From Haloplanus salinarum (GTDB lineage Archaea > Halobacteriota > Halobacteria > Halobacteriales > Haloferacaceae), in assembly GCF_024498175.1 (NCBI RefSeq), contig NZ_CP101823.1, positions 3,354,987-3,418,986 on the forward strand: DNA of 64,000 nt, written 5' to 3'. The position numbers were made by a program, and so were the translations under genes. The notes below the pieces were generated by a model. That model had not been told where the DNA came from and did not search any database. It was given only the letters and a program-made list of their open reading frames with translations. This document shows, in pieces, positions 37,981-46,658 of the stretch (position 1 is its first letter; each line of letters begins with the position of its first letter).

Positions 37981-39333
37981 TCAGATCCGACCCTCGAAGT
38001 ACGACAGCGGCACCTCCTCGACCACCTCGGCCTCGCCGCTCTGGACCTGCAGGATGCGGTAGGGGACGACCGGTTCGAGGTTCTCGTTCAGGTCGACCGA
38101 GCCGGAGGCGCCGTTGTAGTCGATGGCCTCGTCGTTCCCCAGCGCGTCCTTCCCGGCCCCGAACTCCGCGACCGAGACGGTGGTGTCGCCGTCGTTGGGG
38201 CGGGAGACGGCCCGGATGTTCTCGGCGATGCCCGTGCCGCTGGCCTCGCCCGCGGCCTCCAGCGCGAAGCCCATGAGGTACGTCGCGTCGTAGGCGTGGG
38301 GGGCGAACTGCGTGATGTTCCCCTCGCCACCCATGTTCTCCTGGAACGTCTCGCTGTTCGCGGTCTGGGGCGAGGTGATGTACATCCCCTCGACGATCTC
38401 CGAGAGATCGGAGAGGAGTTCGGGCGACAGGATCGCCTCGGCACCGACCCACTCGCCGCCGTAGCCGCCCTGGTTCCACTGCTGGAGGATCGTCCGCCCG
38501 CCGCCGGGGTACATGACCGCGCCGACCGCGTCAGGGTCGCCGTCGAACACCGAGTCCAGGGTGGACGTGTAGTCGCTGGTCTGCTGGGAGTAGCCGACCA
38601 TGTTCAGCGTCTCGCCCTCGAAGTTCTCGCTCGCGGCCTCCGCCAACCCCTGTCCGTAGGGGTTGTCGACGTAGAGGAAGGAGGCCGTCTCGGCTTCGAT
38701 GGACTGGTTCAGCACCCGCGCCATCACGAGCGCCTGCTGGACGTCGTTTGGCGAGGTCCGGCCGTAGTATTTGACGCCGTTGCTCTCGTTGACGCCCGCG
38801 GTCGCCAGGGCGGGTGAGGTGTTGCCGTTGGAGACCTCCATCACCTGGTTGTCACGGGCGATGGGAGCCAGCGTCGTCCCGATCCCGCTGGAGTACGGTC
38901 CCACGAGACCGACGATGCCCTCCTGGTTGATCATCGTCCGGAACTTCTGGGCCGCGCGCGACGGGCTCCCCTCGGTGTCGCGGTTGACCGGCGTGATCTC
39001 CCGGCCACCGAGGACGCCGCCGGAGCCGTTGATCTCCTCGACCGCGAGGTTGAACGCCTGCTGGTGGCCGCCGCCGTAGGCGCTGTTCGTCCCCGTGATC
39101 GGGAAGATGGAGCCGAGGGCGATGGGTTCGCCGCCGCCACCGCCGGACTCCGACTCGGTCTCCGTCTCCTCCATCCCGCCGTCGTCGCCGTCCATGCCCC
39201 CCTCGGTCTCCGTCGGCGTCGCCGTGCTCCCGCCGTCGCCGTCCTGCTGTGAACACCCAGCGAGCGAGACGATGCCGACCGTCCCGGTCGCACCGAGCCC
39301 CCTGAGGACGTCACGTCGACTGTGGTCTGACAT
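37981..39333 (-). CDS. livJ: Branched-chain amino-acid-type ABC transporter, substrate-binding lipoprotein
   Basis: A 450-residue periplasmic-type binding protein, exported by a Tat signal (SRRDVLRGLGATGTVGIVSLAGC, shown by its ends: RR motif and lipobox Cys) and anchored by lipid. A Thr/Glu/Gly-rich linker (about 30-65) precedes the two-lobe type I binding fold: IALGSIFPITGTNSAYGGG, LVGPYSSGIGTTLAPI, YYGRTSPNDVQQALVM and FAPHAYDATYLMGFAL. These are characteristic of amino-acid or amide binding proteins. It is divergent from livHMGF, the matching membrane and ATPase genes, across 310 bp. Confidence 0.9.
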   Translation of the reverse strand: MSDHSRRDVLRGLGATGTVGIVSLAGCSQQDGDGGSTATPTETEGGMDGDDGGMEETETESESGGGGGEPIALGSIFPITGTNSAYGGGHQQAFNLAVEEINGSGGVLGGREITPVNRDTEGSPSRAAQKFRTMINQEGIVGLVGPYSSGIGTTLAPIARDNQVMEVSNGNTSPALATAGVNESNGVKYYGRTSPNDVQQALVMARVLNQSIEAETASFLYVDNPYGQGLAEAASENFEGETLNMVGYSQQTSDYTSTLDSVFDGDPDAVGAVMYPGGGRTILQQWNQGGYGGEWVGAEAILSPELLSDLSEIVEGMYITSPQTANSETFQENMGGEGNITQFAPHAYDATYLMGFALEAAGEASGTGIAENIRAVSRPNDGDTTVSVAEFGAGKDALGNDEAIDYNGASGSVDLNENLEPVVPYRILQVQSGEAEVVEEVPLSYFEGRI

Positions 39334-39620: not shown

Positions 39621-39643
39621 ACCGTGCTATGTCATTCCGACGT

Positions 39644-41068
39644 ATGGCCGCCGAGACGGGACTGCTGAACGCCATCGTAACGGGCGTCGTCACCGGCAGC
39701 ATCGTCGCCCTCGGCGCGACCGGACTCGCGCTCGTGTACGACATCGCCGAGGTCCCCAACTTCGCACACGGGGACCTGTTGACGCTCGGTGCGTACGCTG
39801 CACTGTTGGTCAACAAACCGGATACGGTTCCGCTGTTCGACCTGCTGGCGACCGGCTCCCAGCAGGTCGGCGTCGCCGGCGCCGCGGTCCTGTTCGTCCT
39901 GTCGGCCGCCGGCGTCCTCGGCACCGTCTATCACCTCGGCGGCGTCCGGGCGCTGAAGGGGAGTTGGTGGGGCGTCGACGTCCCCGACGGCGTCGCGCTC
40001 GCGGTCCACGGGGGCATCGCGGCCGCCGTCGGCGCGGCCGTGGTGCTCGGCGCACCCGCCTTCGAGGCCGCACTGCTCTTCTCCTTCGTCCTGCTCGGTG
40101 CCGTCGTTCCGCTGCTCGAATCGCTGATCTTCCGTAAGTTCCGCGAGAAGGACGTCGAACTCGCCTTGATGCTCATCGTCTCGCTCGCCGTCGCCTTCGT
40201 CGTCCGGTTCGGCATCCAGACGATCTTCGGCGGCGAGATCCGGTTTTACACCGTCGAGACGACCGTCCCCTTCCTCGGCGGCCCGCTCGATTTCACCCTC
40301 GCGAAGTTCTTCGACTTCTTCCTCGTGGACGGCGGGCTCACCCTCGCGATCATGGAGAGCCGCGGCGACGCCGTCGAACCCCTGCTCGTGTTGAGCTACT
40401 CGTGGCTCGAACTGGCGGTCGTCGGCCTCGCGACGGCGGGAGTCGCCTACGCCGCCCACCGCCGGCGCCGGGGCACCGCCGGCGTCGTCGGGCCGCGCCT
40501 CGCCGCCGCGCTCTCGGGGCTCGCCGTCCTCGCCCTCGGCGGCGCGGCCCTCTGGGGCGGCGGGACCGCGGTCCCGGAGACGTCCATCGCCGCCACCCGC
40601 GTCCGCACCTCGCCCCTGCGGCTCGGCATCGTCGTCCTCGCCTTGCTCATGATGTCCGCCCTCCACTACCTCCTGCAGGCGACGACGCTCGGCAAGGCCA
40701 TGCGGGCGACGAGCGACAACCGCACGCTCGCGATGGTCCGCGGGATCAACACCCGACAGGTGATGATGTCCGTCTGGATCATCTCGGGACTGTTCGCGGC
40801 CATCGGCGGGGTCATGCTCGGCTTCCTGTTCAGCTCCATCACGATCAACCTCGGGTTCAACCTCCTGCTCGCGATGTTCGCCGGCGTGATCCTCGGCGGC
40901 ATCAGCGTCTACGGCGCCATCCTCGGGAGCTACGTCGTCGGCCTCGCGATGGAGGTGGGCATCTTCGCCATCCCGGGGCTCAGCGCCACCTACCGCATCC
41001 CCGTCGCGTTCGTCGTCCTGTTGCTCGTGTTGCTCGTCAAACCCGAAGGCATCGTGGGGGGGAGCTGA
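39644..41068 (+). CDS. livH: Branched-chain amino-acid-type ABC transporter permease, enlarged
   Basis: A 474-residue permease. The LivH core is clear: TGSIVALGATGLALVYDIAEVPNFAHGDLLTLGAY at the start, MRATSDNRTLAMVRGINTRQVM (the EAA-like ATPase contact loop, about 353-374) and a C-terminal AGVILGGISVYGAILGSYVVG. LivH is usually near 300 residues. The excess lies in two extra blocks, about 65-150 and 205-335, both hydrophobic with probable extra spans and a basic loop (AAHRRRRG). The start is the ATG at 39644, supported by the TATA box. livM follows one base later. Confidence 0.88.
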   Translation: MAAETGLLNAIVTGVVTGSIVALGATGLALVYDIAEVPNFAHGDLLTLGAYAALLVNKPDTVPLFDLLATGSQQVGVAGAAVLFVLSAAGVLGTVYHLGGVRALKGSWWGVDVPDGVALAVHGGIAAAVGAAVVLGAPAFEAALLFSFVLLGAVVPLLESLIFRKFREKDVELALMLIVSLAVAFVVRFGIQTIFGGEIRFYTVETTVPFLGGPLDFTLAKFFDFFLVDGGLTLAIMESRGDAVEPLLVLSYSWLELAVVGLATAGVAYAAHRRRRGTAGVVGPRLAAALSGLAVLALGGAALWGGGTAVPETSIAATRVRTSPLRLGIVVLALLMMSALHYLLQATTLGKAMRATSDNRTLAMVRGINTRQVMMSVWIISGLFAAIGGVMLGFLFSSITINLGFNLLLAMFAGVILGGISVYGAILGSYVVGLAMEVGIFAIPGLSATYRIPVAFVVLLLVLLVKPEGIVGGS

Positions 41069-41069
41069 G

Positions 41070-42755
41070 ATGGCGGCCTCCGACGTCGTCATCTCCTTTA
41101 TGCTCCTGGTGTCCATCTACGGCATCCTCTCGCTCGGCCTGAACGTCAAGTACGGCCACACCGGCCTGCTCGATTTCGGCCACGTCGGCTTCTACCTCGT
41201 CGGCGCGTACACCGCGGCGCTGTTCGTCCTCGGACCGGACGACCCCACCGACTTCACCGCGTACGTCATCGGCCTCGGCGAGGTGCCCGTGGTCGGCACC
41301 TGGCCGGTCGCCATCGCCGCGGCGACGCTCCTGGCCGGGGTGATCGGCGGCCTGGTCGCCCTGCCGACGATCCGGCTACGCGAGGACTACCTCGCCATCA
41401 CGGTGCTCGGCGTCTCGGTCATCTTCCAGCGGATCATCCAGTCCGAGACGTGGCTGGCGAACGGGCCCGACGCCCTCCGCGGCTACAGCCCGCCGCTCCA
41501 GGACCTCTTCCCGCTGGCGATGGAGACGCTGATCGGCCCCGCGATGTTCGGCCTCGTCGTCGCCATCGTCTGGGGAGTCGCCACGGGCGCGCTCGGGCGC
41601 CTCCGCGAGACGGACTCGCGGCTCCCCCTCGACGGCGTCTACGCCGTGACGACGTTCGGACTGACGCGGCTCCGCCGCCGGACCGACGCGCTCGGCTCGG
41701 CCACGACGGTCAGCGCCACGGCCGGTGCCGTCGCGGGCCTGCTCACGTTCGCCCTGCTGGTGGCGGTCGACCCGCTCTTGAGCCTCGGGGCGGTCGTCTC
41801 GCTGTACACGTGGTTCGTGGCGCTGGTGGCCGTTTCCCACTACTACGGCGACCTGGCCCGCCGCGAGTGGGCGGTCGGTATCGCGCTCGGGACCGGCCTG
41901 CTGGTCGCGCTCCTCCCGCTCCCCATCGTCGACGCCGTCGGGCTCAAGAGTGCCCTGACGCTCGCCTTACTCGGCGCGCTCGTGGCCGCGTACTACCTCG
42001 GCGTGACCCGGGTCGACTGGCTCGCCGACGTGAAACTGACCGTCGTCGGCGTCGGGTCGCTCTGGTTCGTCTCGCTGTGGTACTTCCTGCTGCCGATCCT
42101 GGGCCCGCTCGGCGACGGCGACGTCGGCGGCGCCCTCAACACGCTGGTCCAAAACGTCGTCTGGCTCCTCGGCTTCGGCGGCGACACGGGTATCGGCTAC
42201 GCGGTGGTCTTCGTCGGCGAGCTGACCGTCAACGTCGACTACGCGCGCTTCCAACTCGCCGCGTTCGTCCTCTTTCTCGCCGGCCTGTACTACGTCCTGG
42301 AACTCGCCGTCAGGTCGCCGTTCGGCCGCGTCCTGCGGGCGGTCCGCAACGACGAGACGGTCGTGAAGTCCCTCGGCAAGGACCCGTTCGTCTACAAGGT
42401 CCAGACGATGGTCCTGGGGTCGGCGCTCGGCGGGTTCGCGGGCGCCCTCTGGGCCATGTACGCCCAGGGGCTGACCTTCACCACCTTCGCGCCCCGGATC
42501 ACGTTCATCACCCTGCTGATCATGTTCCTGGGCGGCGCCGGCAACAACAAGGGGATGATCCTCGGGGCGGCCATCTTCTGGGCGTTCCAGCAGGCGACGA
42601 CACAGCTCGCCTCCTTCTTCCCGCCCGCCGTCCGCGTCAACATCCAGGCGTTCCGGCTGGTGGTCGTCGGCGTCCTCTTCCTGCTCGTCCTCTACTACGT
42701 TCCGGAGGGTCTGCTCGGGCGCGAGGAGGGGACCACCTCGGAGGTGGACGGATGA
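41070..42755 (+). CDS. livM: Branched-chain amino-acid-type ABC transporter permease, enlarged
   Basis: A 561-residue permease. The LivM core is NVKYGHTGLLDFGHVGFYLVGAY near 25-47, TIRLREDYLAITVLG, the ATPase contact loop RAVRNDETVVKSLGKDPFVYKV (about 425-446) and the closing ALGGFAGALWAMY and FLGGAGNNKGM. LivM is normally 320-420 residues. The extra ~200 residues (about 165-390) form a hydrophobic block with several added spans and charged loops (RRRTDALG, RREWAVG). It overlaps livG by four bases (ATGA). Confidence 0.88.
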   Translation: MAASDVVISFMLLVSIYGILSLGLNVKYGHTGLLDFGHVGFYLVGAYTAALFVLGPDDPTDFTAYVIGLGEVPVVGTWPVAIAAATLLAGVIGGLVALPTIRLREDYLAITVLGVSVIFQRIIQSETWLANGPDALRGYSPPLQDLFPLAMETLIGPAMFGLVVAIVWGVATGALGRLRETDSRLPLDGVYAVTTFGLTRLRRRTDALGSATTVSATAGAVAGLLTFALLVAVDPLLSLGAVVSLYTWFVALVAVSHYYGDLARREWAVGIALGTGLLVALLPLPIVDAVGLKSALTLALLGALVAAYYLGVTRVDWLADVKLTVVGVGSLWFVSLWYFLLPILGPLGDGDVGGALNTLVQNVVWLLGFGGDTGIGYAVVFVGELTVNVDYARFQLAAFVLFLAGLYYVLELAVRSPFGRVLRAVRNDETVVKSLGKDPFVYKVQTMVLGSALGGFAGALWAMYAQGLTFTTFAPRITFITLLIMFLGGAGNNKGMILGAAIFWAFQQATTQLASFFPPAVRVNIQAFRLVVVGVLFLLVLYYVPEGLLGREEGTTSEVDG

Positions 42756-43723
42756 GCGACGCCATCGTCGAGGTCGAGGACCTGCGCAAGACCTTCGGCG
42801 GCATCGTCGCCGTCGACGGCGCCACCTTCGACATCGCCGAGGGGTCGATAACGGGACTCATCGGGCCGAACGGCGCGGGCAAGACGACCACGTTCAACCT
42901 CGTCAGCGGGTTCTACGAGCCCGACGGCGGCACGGTCCGGTACGACGGCCGCGACCTGCAGACGATCATGCGCCCCCACCGGGACGAGACGGTCATCTGG
43001 GGCGGTGCCAGCGGGCTCACGATCGGCGCCCTCGGCGGCGTCGTCGGCCTCGGCCCCCTCGGGCTGAGCGCCGTCCCGGCCGCCGGGGCGACCGTCGCCG
43101 GCGCGGCGCTCGGCGCGGGTGGTTACCTCGCCAAACAGCGGGCCACCCAGCGCCGCCCCGGCCACACCAACAGCCGCCCGTACATGCTGGCCCGCGAGGG
43201 GTTGGTCCGCACCTTCCAGCTCACCCGCGAACTCGGCGAGATGACCGCACTGGAGAACCTGATGCTGGCGCCCCAGGGGCAGGCCGGCGAGAACCTCGCC
43301 AACGCCTGGTTCCGGCGCGGGGCCGTCGCCGAGGAGGAGGCGACGGTCCGGGAACGGGCCGAGGAGACGCTCGAACTGCTGGAGATCGACCACCTCCGGG
43401 ACGAACCGGCGGGCAACCTCTCGGGCGGCCAGCGCAAACTGCTGGAGCTCGGGCGGGTGTTGATGCTCGAACCGCGGGTGATCCTGCTCGACGAACCCGT
43501 CGCGGGCGTCAACCCTGCACTCACCGAGAAGCTGATGGCCCGCATCGAGTCGCTCCGCGAGGACGGCTACACGTTCTGTATCGTCGAACACGACATGGAA
43601 GTGATCATGGAACTCTCCGATACGATCATCGTGATGAACGAGGGGAAGAAACTCGTCGAGGGGGAGCCCGAGGCGATCCGAAACGACGAGGCAGTCATCG
43701 ACGCCTACCTCGGGGTGGGATGA
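42752..43723 (+). CDS. livG: Branched-chain amino-acid-type ABC transporter ATPase with hydrophobic insert
   Basis: A 323-residue ATPase. The motor parts are complete: Walker A GPNGAGKTT (38-46), Q-loop Gln156 in VRTFQLT, signature LSGGQ, Walker B VILLDEPVAG and the switch HDMEVIM. LivG is usually ~255 residues. The extra ~75 (about 72-147) come between the second beta strand region and the Q-loop. They hold a 45-residue Gly/Ala-rich hydrophobic stretch (84-128: GGASGLTIGALGG ... GAALGAGGYLA) flanked by Arg-rich ends. It could be a membrane-touching hairpin. It overlaps livF by four bases. Confidence 0.9.
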   Translation: MSDAIVEVEDLRKTFGGIVAVDGATFDIAEGSITGLIGPNGAGKTTTFNLVSGFYEPDGGTVRYDGRDLQTIMRPHRDETVIWGGASGLTIGALGGVVGLGPLGLSAVPAAGATVAGAALGAGGYLAKQRATQRRPGHTNSRPYMLAREGLVRTFQLTRELGEMTALENLMLAPQGQAGENLANAWFRRGAVAEEEATVRERAEETLELLEIDHLRDEPAGNLSGGQRKLLELGRVLMLEPRVILLDEPVAGVNPALTEKLMARIESLREDGYTFCIVEHDMEVIMELSDTIIVMNEGKKLVEGEPEAIRNDEAVIDAYLGVG

Positions 43724-44433
43724 CGATGGCGCTGCTCGAAGCCCGCGGCGTGGTGTCGGGGTACGGCGACGCGGAGATCCTCCACGGCGTCGACCTCGAC
43801 GTCGAGGACCGCGAGATCGTCACCATCATCGGGCCGAACGGCGCGGGCAAGTCGACGATGATGAAAGCCACCTACGGCCTCATCGACTGCTGGGCGGGGA
43901 CGGTCACCTTCGACGGCGAGGACATCACCGACCTCCGGGCCGATCAGGTCACCGAGCGCGGCATGTGTTACGTCCCGCAGCGGGAGAACATCTTCCCGAC
44001 GCTGACGGTGCGCGAGAACCTCGAGATGGGCGCGTACATCGACGACCCCGACCCCGCGGACTTCGAGGAAGTCTGGGAGCGGTTCCCGTTCCTCGAGGAG
44101 CGGGAGAACATGCGGGCGAGCGCCATGTCCGGCGGCCAACAGCAGATGCTCGCGCTCTCCTCGGCGCTGATGATCGATCCCGACCTCCTGCTCGTGGACG
44201 AACCCTCCGCCGGCCTCGCGCCGGACCTCGTCGACGACATGTTCGAGCGCCTGGTGCAGATCCGCGACGAGACCGACACGGCCATCCTGATGGTCGAACA
44301 GAACGCCCGGAAGGCGCTGGCCGTCTCGGACCGGGGGTACGTCCTCGACATGGGCGAAAACCGGTTCGAGGGATCCGGCGAGGAGCTTCTCGAAAGCGAC
44401 GAGGTGGCGGACCTCTACCTCGGGGGCGCGTGA
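43720..44433 (+). CDS. livF: Branched-chain amino-acid-type ABC transporter ATPase
   Basis: A 237-residue ATPase of normal LivF size. Walker A is GPNGAGKST (about 33-41), Q-loop PQRENIFPTLTV, signature MSGGQQQM, Walker B LLLVDEPSAGLAP and the switch VEQNARKAL. It pairs with LivG as the second nucleotide-binding subunit. The ATG at 43720 overlaps the livG stop; a second ATG two codons on is possible. It is the last gene of the operon, 10 bp before the end of the convergent glycine-zipper gene. Confidence 0.92.
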   Translation: MTMALLEARGVVSGYGDAEILHGVDLDVEDREIVTIIGPNGAGKSTMMKATYGLIDCWAGTVTFDGEDITDLRADQVTERGMCYVPQRENIFPTLTVRENLEMGAYIDDPDPADFEEVWERFPFLEERENMRASAMSGGQQQMLALSSALMIDPDLLLVDEPSAGLAPDLVDDMFERLVQIRDETDTAILMVEQNARKALAVSDRGYVLDMGENRFEGSGEELLESDEVADLYLGGA

Positions 44434-44798: not shown

Positions 44799-46658
44799 AT
44801 GCTCATGGACCAGTATCGACGAGCGCTGTGGGGGACGATGGACGTCCTCGGGATCACCGAGTCCATCGAGCGCAAGATCGTCGCCGCGGTGACGATCCAG
44901 TTCGGTGTCGCGATCGTTCTCGCCGTCCTCCCCTTCGTCCTGTCAGGCGTCGTTCGGACGGCGCTGACGGTCGCCCTCCTCACTGGCGCCGCCGTCGCGT
45001 TCGTGAACACGCTGCTCATCGCTCGTCGCGACTTCGTCGCCCCGGTGCGGATGCTCGAGGACGCGGCGACGACGATCGCCGCCGGCGAGATCGACGACGC
45101 CACTATCGAGAGCCACGATCAGGACGACGAGATCGGGAGCCTCGTCGACGCGTTCGACGACATGCGCGCGTCGCTCGTGACGATCTCCGCGCAGGCCGAC
45201 GCCCTCGCCGAGCAGGAGTTCGACGCGCCGGTCCTCGCGGAGTCGGTCCCCGGGTCGTTCGGCGACTCCCTCGACCGGATGGCGGACAACCTCCGGCGGA
45301 ACACCCGCGAGCTGGAGGCCCTGACGGACCACCTCGAACGGACGGCCGACCGGTACGGAGACGTGATGGCGGAGGCCGCCGACAAGGACCTCTCGGTTCG
45401 GATCGATCCCGACGAGGAAAGCGAGGCCATGGCCGCCATCGCGCGCTCGTTCAACCGGATGCTCGACGACATCGAGGGGACCGTCGGAGAGGTGTCCGCG
45501 TTCGCCGACACCGTCTCCAAGCGGACCGTCGACACCTCGACCGAACTCGACGAAGTGGCGCGGGCGAGCGAGCGGATCAGCGACGCCACCGACGAGATCT
45601 CCGACGATGCCGAGGAACAGCGGGATCAGCTCCAGCGGATCGTCTCGGAGATGAGCGACCTCTCCGCGACGGTCGAGGAGATCGCGGCCTCCGCCGACAG
45701 CGTCGCCGAGGTGGCTACCCGCACCGCGGAGATGGGCGACGACGGACAGGAGGCGGCCGTCGAGGCCCTCGACCGGATGGACGCCATCGAGGCCCGGGCG
45801 ACCGACACGATGGACCAACTCCGCGAACTCGACGACCGCATGGCGCGGATGGGCGACATCGTCGCCACCATCTCCGACATCGCCGAGCGCACGAACCTCC
45901 TCGCGCTCAACGCGTCCATCGAGGCCGCCCACTCGGGCGACGGCGCCGAGGGCTTCGCCGTCGTCGCCGACGAGGTGAAGTCGCTGGCCGAGGAGGCCCA
46001 GGCCGAGGCGACGGACGTCCAGGAGATCATCGACGGCGTCCAGACACAGACCACTGCCACCGTCGAGGGAATGCGCGAAACCACCGAGGAGGTCGCCGAC
46101 GCCGTCGAAACCGTCGAGGACGCCATCGACTCGCTCGACCGCATCGCCGAACTCGCCCACGAGACCGACGAGGGTATGCGGGAGATATCGGACGCCACCG
46201 ACCAGCAGGCCGCCTCGACCGAGGAGACCGTCGCCATGGTCGAACAGATCGAGACCACGAGCCAGGAGACCGCCACCGGCGCCACCGACGTCGCCGGGGC
46301 CGCCCGGGAGCAGTCCGCCTCCCTCGACGACGTCTCCGGCCGCGTCGACGACCTGGCCGACCAGGCCGACGCCCTCCGGGAACTGCTGGAGACGTTCGAA
46401 CTGTCGACGGAGACAGTCGACGGAGCGACCGAGACGGCCGACGCGATGGACGACGTGGTGGTAGCGACGGACGACGTCGCACTCGACGACCCCGACGAAG
46501 CGGGCATACGGACGGACGGCGAGGCGGACGCGCGGGCGGACGGTGAGGCGGTCGACGGGGCCGACGACACGACTGACGCGGCGCTCGACGCCGGCGACGG
46601 CGACGGCGCCACACCCCCCGAGGTCGAAGCCGACGGCGGCCTCACGTCGGATCGCTGA
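44799..46658 (+). CDS. Methyl-accepting transducer (Htr-type), membrane-anchored, no outside sensor domain
   Basis: A 619-residue chemotaxis/phototaxis-type transducer. Two membrane spans (about 28-47 and 50-70) are joined by only a few residues, so there is no outside ligand domain. Two HAMP-like segments follow (about 72-125 and 168-220), then a long coiled coil. The signalling tip is ERTNLLALNASIEAAHSGDG ... DEVKSLAE (about 363-395). The C-terminal ~70 residues are acidic and repetitive. Signal input must come from a partner membrane protein or the cytoplasm. Start ATG 44799; a second ATG two codons on is possible. Confidence 0.92.
   Translation: MLMDQYRRALWGTMDVLGITESIERKIVAAVTIQFGVAIVLAVLPFVLSGVVRTALTVALLTGAAVAFVNTLLIARRDFVAPVRMLEDAATTIAAGEIDDATIESHDQDDEIGSLVDAFDDMRASLVTISAQADALAEQEFDAPVLAESVPGSFGDSLDRMADNLRRNTRELEALTDHLERTADRYGDVMAEAADKDLSVRIDPDEESEAMAAIARSFNRMLDDIEGTVGEVSAFADTVSKRTVDTSTELDEVARASERISDATDEISDDAEEQRDQLQRIVSEMSDLSATVEEIAASADSVAEVATRTAEMGDDGQEAAVEALDRMDAIEARATDTMDQLRELDDRMARMGDIVATISDIAERTNLLALNASIEAAHSGDGAEGFAVVADEVKSLAEEAQAEATDVQEIIDGVQTQTTATVEGMRETTEEVADAVETVEDAIDSLDRIAELAHETDEGMREISDATDQQAASTEETVAMVEQIETTSQETATGATDVAGAAREQSASLDDVSGRVDDLADQADALRELLETFELSTETVDGATETADAMDDVVVATDDVALDDPDEAGIRTDGEADARADGEAVDGADDTTDAALDAGDGDGATPPEVEADGGLTSDR

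Follow-up and report, generated by a model that had tools for sequence, protein, structure and literature searches.

The ATPases of ABC importers are the textbook soluble part of these transporters, attached to the permease solely through coupling helices that dock near the Q-loop, the Q-loop itself being the route by which ABC ATPases sense their permease. In the LptB2FGC system, the separate protein LptC places an added membrane helix among the permease helices and modulates the ATPase. The regulatory insertion of CFTR, located in the ABC ATPase domain NBD1, precedes Walker A and is disordered and polar. PMC3776845 mentions this insert. Nearest to the protein described here in a fold search is the LivG/BraF-type ATPase MJ1267 (PDB 1g6h, 1gaj, 1g9x).

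We analyzed a LivG protein encoded within 64,000 nucleotides of the Haloplanus salinarum genome, hereafter the window, following up an earlier note that had pointed at a hydrophobic insert in this ATPase. With the LivG/BraF-type ATPases the protein shares the ABC fold and motifs, the C-terminal BCA_ABC_TP_C segment, the H-M-G-F gene order and a Peripla_BP_6 partner. Unlike MJ1267 and ordinary haloarchaeal LivG proteins, which have zero residues at the site, it carries a hairpin there. Like the CFTR insertion, this insert is lineage-specific and lies in one ABC ATPase domain, yet it is hydrophobic, helical in prediction and located just before the Q-loop; in contrast to LptC, it would belong to the ATPase itself. 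The features of the locus are as follows.

37981-39333, minus strand: substrate-binding protein gene (Peripla_BP_6), divergent from livH, likely partner of the transporter
39629-41068, plus strand: livH, permease of 479 aa with inserts at about residues 70-133 and 219-323, about four extra membrane-length helices
41070-42755, plus strand: livM, permease, 561 aa, one central insert at about residues 150-388, six extra membrane-length helices
42752-43723, plus strand: livG, ABC ATPase subunit with hairpin insert, 323 aa, ATG at 42752 (translation, Pfam, NCBIfam, fold search)
42959-43165, plus strand: net insertion of 69 residues in LivG, about residues 70-138 (Walker A to Q-loop lengths; alignment with ordinary LivG and MJ1267)
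42989-43132, plus strand: charge-free, Gly/Ala-rich core T80-A127, 48 residues, predicted helix-turn-helix with W83 at its start and Y125 at its end
43133-43174, plus strand: basic exit stalk (KQRATQRRPGHTNS) running up to the conserved RP motif and Q-loop strand (charge count)
43720-44433, plus strand: livF, second ATPase, 237 aa, without insert, lineage signature C57-W58 following the Walker A helix

Pfam assigns window LivG to ABC_tran above cut-off, with the match split around the insert, and detects BCA_ABC_TP_C (PF12399) at 34.1 bits against a cut-off of 25.5. The best NCBIfam model, LivG (NF008449), reaches 231 bits against a cut-off of 362, its match likewise split by the insert. LivH, LivM, LivF and a type-1 periplasmic binding protein surround the gene, as is usual for the family. 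Window LivG belongs to the wider LivG-type ABC ATPase family and lies outside the curated NF008449 equivalog. The ATPase is otherwise complete, as previously suggested: Walker A, the Q-loop, LSGGQ, Walker B (LLLDEP) and the H-loop are all intact, and these motifs are invariant in 18 homologues.

The earlier note had placed about 75 added residues between the Walker A half and the Q-loop (42965-43192, residues 72-147). The insertion is real, with 113 residues separating Walker A from the Q-loop strand in window LivG versus 44 in 19 of 19 ordinary haloarchaeal LivG proteins, and its size is corrected to 69 residues at about 42959-43165. An alignment with ordinary LivG and MJ1267 locates the extra residues after the "(D/N)(L/I)" that closes the Walker A half and before the single short helix that leads into the Q-loop strand. 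At the same site, a haloarchaeal LivG paralogue (L100:5563-6630) harbors an unrelated polar, low-complexity insert of ~47 residues.

The hydrophobic stretch is present and slightly longer than the 45 residues first noted, as T80-A127 comprises 48 residues without D, E, K or R. An uncharged run of this length arose in 1 of 20,000 shuffles of the same protein, a conservative test because shuffled LivG retains the insert's own residues. Among 38 hairpin LivG proteins the longest uncharged run averages 45 residues (range 22-50), compared with at most 23 (20-23) outside the hairpin and in ordinary LivG or LivF. Of the two basic flanks originally described, the C-terminal one holds, the exit segment (KQRATQRRPGH) bearing a net charge of +5 in a protein of net -19, whereas the N-terminal flank of the core is neutral. 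In 36 homologues the exit stalk has a mean net charge of +2.1, with a whole-protein mean of -19.4. Hairpins of the lineage share one layout, with an entry stalk of ~11 residues, ~44 uncharged Gly/Ala-rich residues and a basic exit stalk of ~18 residues. W83 and Y125 are invariant in 18 LivG proteins; in a more diverse set the tryptophan is near-invariant and the tyrosine invariant. The turn between the helices is hydrophobic in window LivG, and in some lineages the core contains charge. GxxxG motifs number 161 across homologues versus 124 ± 8 in shuffles, the rows being related to one another, and generic small-xxx-small patterns are not enriched in the uncharged run of window LivG itself.

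No Pfam family covers the hydrophobic insert of the window protein, and 12 homologous inserts yielded only isolated weak Pfam matches to unrelated families, one of them at E 0.0014 to DUF6861. Glycine-zipper domains and subunit c of F-type ATP synthases resemble the insert in make-up and helix-turn-helix plan. Glycine-zipper families gave no match at E up to 1 with the window insert and the 12 homologous ones, and subunit c matched weakly over the second insert helix only (E 2.4). No known hairpin family in Pfam matched significantly, and the likeness is one of physical type only. A search of PDB profiles returned no convincing relative of the insert. Its best matches (E 0.006) all belong to one family, 3-oxoacyl-ACP synthase II, and align the Gly/Ala stretch plus "SRPF"; we take them as chance, and as a reminder that Gly/Ala stretches can also form a buried soluble core. 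No description of such a LivG insert was found in the literature covered, which lacked most subscription journals.

AlphaFold modeling of LivG with 18 homologues recovered a normal ATPase fold with insert helices at residues 77-96 and 113-133 around a loop, at a very low pLDDT within the insert (24-35). On a membrane insertion scale, the two insert helices have mean energies of +1.2 and +2.7 kcal/mol. The best segment of ordinary LivG stands at +4.4 kcal/mol, and most helices of the window permeases at about -0.2 to -2.7 kcal/mol. By this measure the insert helices are marginal, since they differ clearly from soluble LivG and are less hydrophobic than most membrane helices. The membrane-touching hairpin that had been proposed within a soluble motor domain is partly supported: an unusual hydrophobic hairpin is backed by its conservation, by a hydrophobicity well beyond that of any ordinary LivG and by a low-confidence helix-turn-helix prediction, and membrane contact is plausible, with helices that are only marginal.

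A search for the insert in other LivG proteins, as the earlier note had advised, identified hairpin LivG in 41 of 392 genomes of the order Halobacteriales (17 of 95 genera), with a narrow range of insert lengths among carriers; the suspicion that most haloarchaeal genomes are without it was correct. Of 11 genomes searched within the genus, 7 encode a full-length homologue with the insert; such homologues also occur in three other genera of this family, and a separate collection contributed 17 loci with the hairpin, in Haloplanus, Halopenitus, Haloquadratum, Halocatena, Natrinema and others. In a draw of 375 genomes of the phylum, all matches came from the same family, and none lay beyond Halobacteriales. 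Within the same genome no further convincing hairpin copies were detected, and plasmid relatives match only the part after the hydrophobic core. When the insert columns are omitted from the LivG tree, a single change of state accounts for the hairpin proteins; they form one clade, with support 100/99, once the long-branch paralogues (L099, L100) and the outgroup MJ1267 are excluded. Because the carriers form one clade, a single gain follows, and loss of the hairpin was not seen among the sampled clade members.

We consider it roughly an even bet that the insert forms a Gly/Ala helical hairpin, borne on hydrophilic stalks, by which LivG is docked to the membrane or the permease near the Q-loop. 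One haloarchaeal LivG lineage has gained this predicted helix-turn-helix finger. Its two helices probably pack together via small residues. The finger may be embedded in the cytoplasmic side of the membrane, rest against that side, or occupy a permease groove that faces the membrane; the tryptophan and tyrosine at the ends of the helices, together with the basic stalk, would anchor it. Exposed haloarchaeal surfaces are expected to be acidic and the core is uncharged, so that the finger is probably enclosed by lipid or by protein. Segments at a membrane interface typically have aromatic W/Y ends and a basic stalk, and the presence of both here would favor such an interface. The LivG side of the ATPase dimer would thereby be docked to the membrane domain beside the Q-loop. 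As the insert leads via one short helix into the Q-loop strand, the finger could influence coupling; likely effects would be a stronger or more specific assembly, or altered coupling. Counting against this reading are the low pLDDT, the marginal helices, the hydrophobic turn of window LivG, the charge within the core of some lineages, the small-xxx-small patterns that are not enriched in the run of window LivG, and the polar insert of L100. A bolder version appears unlikely to us, namely that the ATPase subunit counts in part as a membrane protein, its Gly-rich hairpin by the Q-loop penetrating the bilayer and sensing or governing the permease's state, in most species beside permeases with about ten extra helices, which would make it a new importer class.

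The main rival, and a serious one, is a hairpin acting as a protein-protein docking element on LivF or on the cytoplasmic face of the permease, touching no lipid; we hold this to be possible, if doubtful. The marginal hydrophobicity of the helices suits such docking, and LivF offers candidate partner residues. Window LivF is LivF/UrtE-like and scores below the NCBIfam cut-offs. Throughout the hairpin lineage W58 of LivF is invariant and C57 near-invariant, whereas ordinary LivF mostly has His-Met or Tyr-Met at these positions, and this LivF accompanies hairpin LivG even beside different permeases. However, the signature is confounded by common descent, which explains C57 and W58 equally well, and the W/Y ends and basic exit stalk are typical of segments at a membrane interface.

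In the operon, LivH and LivM both contain BPD_transp_2 and are enlarged, an observation absent from the earlier note. By comparison, the ordinary partners elsewhere in the same genome (L099) measure 287 aa for LivH and ~313 aa for LivM, and ordinary LivM proteins span about 313-331 aa. All the LivH and LivM inserts are hydrophobic and conserved. For LivM, AlphaFold places insert helices at residues 155-181, 211-232, 239-259, 264-281, 290-314 and 322-348 with low-to-moderate confidence, the insert being the best-predicted part of an otherwise poor model (pTM 0.35). The window substrate-binding protein scores under the cut-off for branched-chain amino acids and also under that for urea. At three other loci (L105, L108 and L109) the substrate-binding protein gene sits between livG and livF; in a metagenome-assembled genome (L047:2703-4081) LivH is split over two frames, by a frameshift or a sequencing error; and in the window a methyl-accepting chemotaxis protein gene (HAMP plus MCPsignal, 44799-46658) lies 3' of the operon on the same strand.

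These enlarged permeases raise the idea that the hairpin exists to pack on the extra LivH and LivM helices, as one three-subunit adaptation. The LivM insert profile and that of the first LivH insert each matched 39 genomes, the same 39 and at loci shared with the LivG insert, and no genome in the sample of 392 matched either permease profile while lacking the hairpin in LivG. Such co-occurrence in one descending operon is, however, non-independent evidence, and two operons weaken the idea: L101 and L102 (genomes G282 and G397) combine hairpin LivG with a small LivH of 298 aa and a LivM of 321-331 aa. In trees, their permeases fall outside the enlarged clade, whereas both of their ATPases cluster with the hairpin lineage. 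Conversely, at L082:1944-6263 permeases that are sister to the enlarged clade accompany ordinary LivG and LivF; this operon is partly enlarged, LivH having the second insert only and LivM being partly enlarged too. From these exceptions it follows that the ATPase pair and the permease pair behave as exchangeable modules and that the hairpin follows the LivG/LivF pair, as judged from few exceptional operons and from permease trees that include long branches. Whether the small permeases are replacements or ancestral is not distinguished by the AU test (p 0.325). The hairpin is thus shown to be independent of the permease inserts, and we regard the three-subunit adaptation as improbable. In most species the added permease helices belong with this system, and the finger does not depend on them.

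Slimmer still are the chances that the insert is close to neutral, an extension tolerated because the site is permissive. Most haloarchaeal LivG proteins do without it, and the polar insert of other composition in L100 indicates that this site tolerates inserts without membrane contact. In Haloplanus, the insert evolves faster than the remainder of the protein, with a dN/dS of 0.14-0.34 versus 0.07-0.17 for the rest of LivG. Both ranges nevertheless lie well below 1, and the insert is under purifying selection in this genus, constrained less tightly than the ATPase core; the narrow length range, the invariant positions and a single gain with no loss among sampled clade members likewise speak against neutrality. 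An assembly or sequencing artefact, which the earlier note had named as a possible undoing of its claim, is rejected, as the window derives from a single-contig genome and the insert is in frame in the 41 independent genomes and the 17 loci of the separate collection.

Hairpin LivG is a variant within the known LivG-type ATPases, and it is the structural idea that is unusual. A conserved hydrophobic finger at the coupling site constitutes a natural experiment on the coupling of ATPase and permease, for which halophilic archaea offer ordinary, hairpin-only, partly enlarged and fully enlarged operons for comparison.
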